Source of the DNA: Tenrec ecaudatus
Lineage: Eukaryota > Chordata > Mammalia > Afrosoricida > Tenrecidae
Assembly: GCF_050624435.1 (NCBI RefSeq)
Contig: NC_134539.1
Span: 122,495,525 to 122,559,524, forward strand
Length of the DNA stretch: 64,000 nucleotides
Direction: 5' to 3'
Numbering within the stretch: position 1 is the stretch's first letter; each line of letters starts with the position of its first letter. Position numbers and translations under genes: made by a program. Positions 46,001 through 49,000 of this stretch are shown here, one piece after another. The notes below the pieces were generated by a model. That model saw only the letters and a list, made by a program, of their open reading frames with translations. It ran no database searches and was not told the origin of the DNA.

Positions 46001-49000
46001 TGAAGTTAAAATTTTAAAAACAAGATACAGAACCAAATGGTGCTCCACATAAGTTAGCGTGTAATTACTTAAAGTATGTAAGAGTTAGCTACTAGCCCCA
46101 ACCAGGTGTATTTTTTTTAACATGCAGCTCACATGTATTCTATTGTTCCACAAAACGTATGTGTGACTGTTCCATCATGAATAGATTCTTTGCATAGTCC
46201 AAAGTCTGTTAGTTTCACATGACCTATAATAAAAAAGTACAAATGATTATTCTGACAATTCTAAATACGTATAGTGTTTGAACATCTCACATAAGATATT
46301 GACATCCATTCCATTTTTCCTGCATCATTTTTTAAAAGATATCAAGGATCAACAAAGTGGCATCTATAAAATGGGATGCTGTATCTTTCAAACTAGAGCC
46401 AAGGTGTCTTTGCTAAACACATGAACTACTAAAGGAGTGAAATAGAATGGGGGGTGAGGGCTGGGAGGGGAATTCCATTTTCTGTCCAAGAATTTGAAAC
46501 ATTTACTATCTTCATGTGTCATTTTACAGATGCTACATTGGCTCCAGTTCCCCAGATACCCTGCACAGAACTGCTCCTGTGAGGTGTGAGTGAATGGCCC
46601 ACCCCTGATGATTCTCCCATAAATTGTACTGTCAATAGCAGCAAGTAGTCAGGACTGAGAGAGAAGCCCTAGGGGGTAATTTCATTAGTTCTTAATAAAG
46701 TGTGATAGACAGACCTTAATAAACATACTTTTAACAAAGGCTTGACATTGTACTTCAGACATAGTATTACCATGGACTGTGACTTAAGAGTTCTTAAAAG
46801 TCTTAGAAAATCACCTATACCAAGTTAGCTTATGCTGCCAGATGTTACCAGGTGAGTGAAAAAATTGCTATATGGCTAAGAACCTTCTCAGATCCTGAGA
46901 AATTCCCCACCTTACACAAAGAACATTCCCATTTAGGGTTAGTTTTACTAGTGTAGTGGTTCTCAACCTCCCTAAGGCCGAGACCCTTTCATACCATTCC
47001 TCATGTTGTGGTGACCCCCCCAACCATAAAATTATTTTCGTTGCTACTTCATCACTGTAATTTTGCTACTGTTATTAATCGTAATATAAATATCTGATAT
47101 GCATGATGTATTTTCATTATTACAAACTGAACATAATTAAAGCATAGTGATTAATCACAAAAATATGTAATTATATACTGTGAAATACTTACTAATACTT
47201 ATCGAATTACAAATAAATGAAATTTTGTCTTGAAGCATGGTGTAGCATGGGTAACAGTCTTCATGCCAGGTACTCCTATGTGGGCGTGTCTGCATGTGGG
47301 CGGACCGGGAGACGGACAGAGGAGTGGTGTCTCGGTTCCTAAGACCATAGGAAATATGTGTTTTCCGATGGTCTTAGGCGGCCCCTGTGAAAAGGTCCTT
47401 CAACCCCCGAGGGGGTCGCAACCCACAGGTCGAGAACCGCTGCACTTGTGTCATTAGGTATCCAGCTGTTCATCACCCTGGGAGTGCCACTACTGAAAGT
47501 TCATTTCAAAGAAAGGGGTATTTGATTCAAACTAAATACCTATTAGGTATGGGCATAGAACAAATATCATTTTTATTTTCATTGTTTTAAATACTTTTAT
47601 TGGGAGCTCTTAAAACTCTTATCACACCCCATCCATCCATCCATTGTGTCAAGCACATCTGTACATTTCCATCATCATTTTCAAAGTGTTTTCTTTCTAC
47701 TTGAGCCTTTGATCTCAGCTCCGCATTTTTTTCCTCCCTCCCATCATTTCTATTTTCAAAGAACCATCTGATACATTAAAATTAATAGGTCAAAGAAGTT
47801 AACTAGTCATTCCCAAACTATTCTTTGCCTTAGTTCAGAGTAACAAGGGGGGGAGGTAGAGTAACAGAAGTAGGAGGTAGCTACACCATCTCAGGCATGG
47901 CACAGTTCTGGCTTAAGAGTATCGTTTAAACAAACAAACCGCAGTACAATTAAGAACACGATACTAGTCTGTTATCTAAATACCACTTTCTGTCCAAGAG
48001 TTCAAAACAGTTACTACCTCATGTGTGCTGTAGATATCTAAGGATCGTAAGCATGTGAGTAAATGGCCAGGTATACCCGGCCCAGAGCATGCGGGCATAA
48101 ATTCAAGTGTCTGTGGCAGCTCTGTTAGCTGTAGTCAGAGTTCTTTTGATTGTACCTATTGTTACCTAAGAAATTTGTCTCTGTGATGTATGTTTGCTGA
48201 GGCAAACAGGGATGAACTGATGCCCACTAAACACACTCTATATGACTGAATCAAAAACTGGTTCATTCCAATTGTCTCCCCCCAAAAAATTAATCATAAA
48301 AAGTACCCCTTTTCTAAAGAAAAATTCAGTTTTATAGGTAAGATTGCATTCCCAAATTCAAGAACAAATCAAGACTAATGTTTGGACTGGTTTTTACTCA
48401 TCACACTTTACATAAGAATTTCAAAAAAAAAAGAATTTCAAAAGAATTATGAGCTATAAAAAGAAAGAATTAAGCCAAGAAAAGCAGTTGAGTGGCCATT
48501 TAGTCTCATCAACCTTAAGGGCCTAAATAACTAAATAACAGCAAGTATCAAGATGTTCTAAGTTCTAAAATGTATATAGTAAGATAGATGTATATGGAAC
48601 TTTGAAAATGAGGATTTGAAGATGATTATTTACTATAGAATTTTTTACGGTATATCTCCACCTTGGTGATTAAGCATGATATTCTCCGGCTTCAGGTCTC
48701 TGTAGATGATCCCCTTTTGATGTAAATGCCCCAAAGCCATGGAGATTTCTGCCAAGTAAAAGCTGAAAATAAAAGTGATTTCATAAAATTAAAAGGAGTC
48801 ATCGACTCGAAGCCATTTATGCATGGAATAAAATTTCTTCAAAGAAACGGACATGCACCACAGACCAAATTTGTAGGGTTTGGAAATGGGGGGATGAGAC
48901 GGCATAGGTTGCTGCCCAAAAGGCATGGAAACGTTTATGTTTCGCTCATTCTAGTGAAACTATAAAATGTTTTCTTTCATCATTTGAAGATACTGCTAAA

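Follow-up and report, generated by a model that had tools for sequence, protein, structure and literature searches.

A stretch of 64 kb of genomic DNA, here called the window, contains at positions 46954-47442 a non-autonomous SPIN (hAT) element that is complete: its ends match, and an 8-bp target duplication flanks it. The window element derives by internal deletion from a 2.8-kb autonomous element of that genome, and we are highly confident that it represents a fixed, inert copy that was mobilised in trans and has decayed without selection. It is one among some ten thousand similar fossils, a very rough figure, and alone changes nothing; it leads to a testable question, namely why four SPIN transposases of this genome are intact while their sibling copies decay.

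Ends, target site and host intron of the window element

The element (489 bp, long size class) lies on the minus strand, as defined by the reading direction of the parental transposase, a direction shared by RPS6KB1. The hAT-type terminal inverted repeats CAGNGGTTCTCAACC, a motif derived in part from the copies, are present in the window copy and in the family. In the window they occupy positions 46954-46969 at the low-coordinate end (TAGTGGTTCTCAACCT, plus strand) and 47427-47442 at the high-coordinate end (...GGTCGAGAACCGCTG, minus strand). Position 1 of the window copy is a T by mutation, the family end CAGTGGTTCTCAACC having C there, and the high-coordinate end reads ...CGAGAACCGCTG. The two repeats pair at 13 of 16 bases in the window copy, and those of the consensus at 15 of 16. 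In simulations, about 1 per 100,000 random local draws reached a match of at least 14/16, a threshold one base above the window copy itself. Two copies of the target site duplication flank the element at 46946-46953 (TACTAGTG) and 47443-47450 (CACTTGTG), and these are identical at 6 of 8 positions, as were 0.7% of random local 8-mer pairs. With ends and duplication of this quality, the window copy alone is only moderately convincing.

We used the window element to search its own assembly (3.918 Gb, 2,140 contigs). The 40 matches scored out of 9,792 first-look candidates comprised the window itself and 39 other copies with 84-87% identity, nearly all of which match the element across its whole length; a slightly longer query gave 9,907 first-look candidates. 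Recognisably the same ends were present in 30 of 30 copies, that is, in 29 fetched copies and the window copy. In this set, which is biased since its members are the copies most similar to the window element, the mean direct-repeat identity of the flanks was 0.82 at a length of 8 and 0.13-0.33 at lengths of 5-7 and 9-11. A duplication of at least 6/8 was found in 27 of the 30 copies, the remaining three scoring 5, 3 and 1, and target positions 3-6 were mostly C-T-A-G (42, 57, 55 and 36 of 60, respectively). When left and right flanks from different copies were paired as a control, 14% of pairs reached at least 6/8, a consequence of the CTAG-like character of the target. The family-wide comparison of the flanks is decisive for the reality of the target duplication.

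The exons of RPS6KB1 were located on the minus strand of the window with an RPS6KB1 query protein. The downstream exon lies at 46132-46223 (low end as matched by tblastn) and the upstream exon at 48662-48761 (high end as matched by tblastn), and they enclose a host intron of 2,438 bp on the same strand (46224-48661), between the exon ending in ..NHQ-G and the exon starting with G-HVKLTDFG. The GT..AG borders of this intron were taken directly from the window sequence. The preliminary description had placed a transposon with terminal inverted repeats and an imperfect 8-bp duplication in an intron of a kinase gene, and this reading held: the same ends recur family-wide, flank identity across the 30 genomic copies peaks at the expected length, and the element lies between RPS6KB1 exons whose facing borders are at 46223 and 48662.

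Other repeats were seen nearby. A 49-bp direct repeat (46471-46519 and 47979-48026, 84% identical) flanks the SPIN element within the same intron; an abundant RTE-like repeat is found at 47587-47721, with ~20 matches within the 64-kb window; and an AfroSINE-like repeat lies at about 45085-45300, with weaker copies in other parts of the 64 kb. The AfroSINE-like repeat suggests an afrotherian host, in agreement with the host group proposed in the preliminary description, and a tenrec is likely.

Size, divergence and autonomous source of the family

An exact 30-mer of the family was counted 605 times in the genome, compared to 0 for its reversed control, and from this count and the family divergence we estimate the family, very roughly, at ten thousand copies. 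A second sample was drawn by taking every fifth of 100 listed places of an internal 30-mer, which gave 20 copies, all on contigs C1 and C22 and including one locus, L088, that is the same as L003. Ten of these copies were short (~192 bp, two of them incomplete), two measured 331-336 bp, six belonged to the window-type long class (one incomplete) and two matched the first ~125 bases only. Both ends were present in 15 of the 20, with a duplication of at least 6/8 in 11 of these 15 and a lower score in 4. Compared to a consensus of the 29 other copies, built without the window copy, the window copy has diverged by 6.4% outside CpG. The 20 copies picked by the 30-mer gave a weighted mean K2P of 7.8% (range 5.2-16%) relative to the long-class consensus, with CpG and the 30-mer itself left out. 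At mammalian substitution rates of 2.2 to 4.5 × 10−9 per site per year, the family divergence would correspond to about 15-35 million years.

The autonomous partner was found by searching the genome with a piece of ZBED5, a Buster-type domesticated transposase. Five full-length or nearly full-length SPIN elements were fetched (L102-L106), and in these a transposase, read in the opposite direction to the consensus, lies between the consensus ends. In L104, a ~600-codon transposase separates consensus positions 1-304 from positions 297-486; the flanking parts are shorter in some of the others. L103 is missing the outermost 169 bases at one end, and L106 is 17 bases short at the opposite end. Both consensus parts share in L104 the 8 bases of the internal-deletion junction GTCTTCAT (window 47257-47264), an overlap that is not fully identical in L104. 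Since the consensus ends flank the L104 transposase in this manner, the 486-bp form represents a simple internal deletion.

Four of these five elements, L103 to L106, encode intact proteins, which are 38-40% identical to the ZBED5 piece. All four gave weak matches to the Pfam models Dimer_Tnp_hAT and DUF4371, and three of the four also to zinc-finger models, all below the curated cut-offs. The four loci were missing from both lists obtained by Pfam hAT profile searches of the genome, probably because the proteins score below the cut-offs, and the L104 transposase had 0 matches among PDB sequences.

Intact and decayed transposases

Used as a genome query, the L104 transposase gave 93 matches from the 73 scored of 6,999 candidates. 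Among the 73 scored, four loci, the query included, have the whole frame without a stop at an identity of at least 90% (90-91%). Each carries an uninterrupted frame of 599-600 aa in the genome searched (G000): L103 (C40:206507755-206509551), L104 (C40:69875149-69876945), L105 (C121:16523886-16525679) and L106 (C55:100790554-100792353). The next-best scored copy is 79% identical at the protein level and contains 9 stops; among the 73, partial matches to the L104 transposase peak at 84%, and a few partial stretches are free of stops. Pairwise comparison of the four intact copies gave dN of 0.046-0.052, dS of 0.13-0.21 and dN/dS of 0.25-0.38. Their coding parts differ by a K2P of 0.064-0.082 with 0-2 indels and no frameshift relative to L104, and their 5′ non-coding parts by 0.16-0.23 with between 9 and 16 indels in each pair; since the end of L103 is missing there, its 3′ part was left out of the non-coding comparison.

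As a control we assembled nine decayed copies, consisting of L102 and eight nearly full-length copies (ranks 5 to 29 among the listed matches), the latter being compared in the coding part only. These copies have 2-9 stops in the L104 frame and 2-9 frameshifting indels each. A tree of all 13 autonomous copies has a star-like shape: no internal branch exceeds 0.006, and terminal branches measure 0.035-0.048 for the intact copies compared to 0.072-0.115 for the decayed ones. Our reading is that the copies examined stem from one burst, and that the four transposases were retained afterwards.

We then counted changes private to one copy. Under a strict rule, counting such changes at sites invariant in the other copies, the intact copies have 43 nonsynonymous and 40 synonymous changes and 0 stops, compared to 342, 115 and 18 in the decayed copies (Fisher P = 1.7 × 10−5). 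Under a looser 75% rule the counts are 116, 90 and 0 for the intact copies and 713, 242 and 38 for the decayed ones (P = 5.3 × 10−8). Synonymous private changes per copy are alike in the two sets (22.5 intact, 26.9 decayed). Relative to a neutral expectation calculated with transition and CpG weights of our own choosing (2.4 and 6), the decayed copies fit, with a synonymous fraction of 0.244 versus 0.261 (P = 0.23), and the intact copies depart, with a fraction of 0.437 (P = 4.5 × 10−8). Tested singly under the strict rule, L103 (P = 0.006), L105 (P = 0.014) and L106 (P = 0.005) reached significance and L104 did not (P = 0.19), the contrasts given above being pooled over copies. The four copies were found as best matches to a transposase protein and are thus a sample selected for preservation. 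Decayed copies have on average 40 private nonsynonymous or stop changes, and the Poisson probability of having 13 or fewer is 7 × 10−7 per copy; set against at most 6,999 candidates, chance selection of this kind seems too weak to account for the four. Variable residues are sparse near the candidate catalytic residues D182, D248 and E552 (9/104, 7/65 and 2/43 in three blocks, chosen after the alignment had been seen, compared to 94/388 elsewhere).

The contrast in private changes between intact and decayed copies suggests selection after insertion, that is, exaptation. On balance we lean towards a history in which a horizontally acquired burst would have been followed by host exaptation of four separate SPIN insertions, with the nine other autonomous copies examined decaying neutrally. 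The four could also have been inserted late, by SPIN lineages that stayed active for a long time, in which case selection would have acted on transposition and not for the host. This explanation, which we consider rather doubtful, agrees with the retention of the three candidate catalytic residues in all four proteins and of both ends in L104 and L105, with duplications of 7/8 and 6/8; however, L103 lacks one end and the ends of L106 are damaged, the 73 scored candidates include no close relative of the four, each of the four stands on its own terminal branch of the star-like tree, and their non-coding parts have diverged to the same degree as those of the decayed L102. As judged from these sequence comparisons, exaptation is probably the likeliest cause of the intact frames and is ranked above late insertion.

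In their uninterrupted hAT frame and low nonsynonymous rate, the four loci resemble domesticated Buster transposases of the ZBED5 type and the SPIN transposase reportedly exapted in murine rodents. Unlike these, they are four separate insertions still inside recognisable SPIN elements, two of which have both ends. Should orthologues exist in other tenrecs, the four would represent new, foreign-derived host genes, for which the decayed siblings from the burst would serve as a built-in neutral control; the lead on four constrained transposases deserves a check by specialists.

Family assignment and proposed history of the window copy

The window element is a new copy of the known SPIN family and an ordinary member of it. 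Work by Pace in 2008 is said to show that SPIN marks tenrecs among afrotherians and that a SPIN transposase was exapted in murine rodents, and horizontal transfer of SPIN was reportedly described in the same work and by Gilbert in 2010 and 2012. The window family resembles SPIN_NA_1_Et, where Et stands for the tenrec Echinops telfairi, in its hAT ends, 8-bp duplication, very many copies and size classes that appear to be of internal-deletion type; on these features, no difference beyond ordinary copy-level mutations is apparent. The same element name occurs in a paper on bats (PMC3183009). Tenrecs were invaded by DNA transposons (PMC7731502) and carry OC1 transposons (PMC3621081). OC1 (OposCharlie1; OC1_Et in tenrec) is, like SPIN, horizontally transferred and rich in internal-deletion copies, and a table gives OC1_Et 6,837 copies at an average of 8.1% from consensus (PMC3621081); OC1 and SPIN are separate families.

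A link to mouse was obtained by searching the texts of papers for the SPIN end sequences, and the matches lie in sequence from FDH (Adh5) and from Ate1. Three mouse papers print such end sequences (PMC8376875, PMC2767504 and PMC2837401). The FDH gene sequence as printed in PMC8376875 shares 79 of 96 positions with the start of the consensus (bases 1-96), with a local score of 60 compared to at most 16 in 300 shuffles. Two primers used to screen Ate1, which appear in PMC2767504 and again in PMC2837401, correspond to the other consensus end on one strand (R2 at 19/20 and R1 at 18/19), and 2,000 shuffles of R2 reached at most 15/20. These matches to both SPIN ends in the printed sequences indicate that the same kind of element occurs in mouse, a comparison that covers one other species and the end regions only. 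Interior SPIN k-mers had no match in the texts of the papers searched, and literature searches on SPIN plus tenrec gave nothing useful. Exact SPIN patterns were absent from the viral and prokaryotic contig collections, as expected for a vertebrate element; blastn of plasmid and phage collections found nothing useful, and an Rfam scan at the gathering threshold gave 0 matches. The assignment to SPIN made in the preliminary description is supported by the ends, the 8-bp duplication, the very many copies, the autonomous hAT partner and the mouse termini.

Combining these results, we propose that an autonomous 2.8-kb Buster-type SPIN element lost its middle, ~2.35 kb including the transposase gene, giving rise to the 486-bp form with both ends. 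SPIN transposase from other copies would then have moved this form in trans by cut-and-paste, and it would have inserted into an 8-bp target of nnCTAGnn type in the RPS6KB1 intron during one genome-wide burst, the window copy decaying without selection thereafter. The copy is presumably fixed and without effect on RPS6KB1, SPIN probably reached the lineage by horizontal transfer, and the age of the element suggests that the insertion should be absent from other afrotherians such as elephant, aardvark and hyrax. The ends, the target duplication, the high-copy family, the deletion origin, the source of transposase and the star-like tree of 13 are shown by the genomic sequences; the family name and the lineage-specificity of the insertion are supported indirectly.

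An older mammalian hAT element (Charlie, MER or similar) dating from early placentals, and therefore common to other afrotherians and human, is a very improbable alternative for the window copy: hAT ends of this general look are also found in older families, but a divergence of merely ~6-8% outside CpG corresponds, at the rates given above, to tens of millions of years and not ~100, and the 13 autonomous copies form a star-like tree. We rejected the older family because the SPIN divergence is too low and because the other abundant hAT family of the genome carries different ends. Still more improbable is a role for the intronic copy in the service of RPS6KB1, be it as an enhancer or as a splice element. 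Its position in that gene and a subterminal palindrome with two 17-nt arms (47338-47378, 94% complementary) might suggest such co-option, but we rejected it for lack of any sign of constraint, given that the palindrome is already part of the family consensus, the exons are 730 and 1,219 bp away and the divergence of the copy is ordinary for the family.

Other hAT sequences were recorded during the genome searches. For one Pfam hAT profile, 30 of 147 genome matches were fetched and checked for SPIN ends. A second hAT family (L056-L067 and L069-L080) accounts for 24 of the 30 fetched PF05699 loci; these are 86-92% identical to its member L058 over stretches of up to 2 kb, and in all 12 loci with a terminus examined the end resembles TAAGGTGACCAGATTTTAACATTGGTAAAG, unlike SPIN. 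L051 (C139:712739), close to the start of its contig, and L052 (C152:19688341) each hold a hAT-type gene with a long open reading frame, and their profile scores are identical. On C40, at 15.9-37.7 Mb, there are eight PF05699 matches whose scores are equal or nearly so and whose frame measures 86 aa, a pattern that suggests segmental amplification of a hAT remnant. Remnants of a Buster-type transposase are found on C96 at 85.1-87.3 Mb and on many small contigs (C1147, C2124, C1012, C837 and others); their near-equal scores, 216-aa frame and mostly shared set of stops (2 TGA, 1 TAG and 1 TAA) suggest a copy caught in an amplified or satellite-like array.
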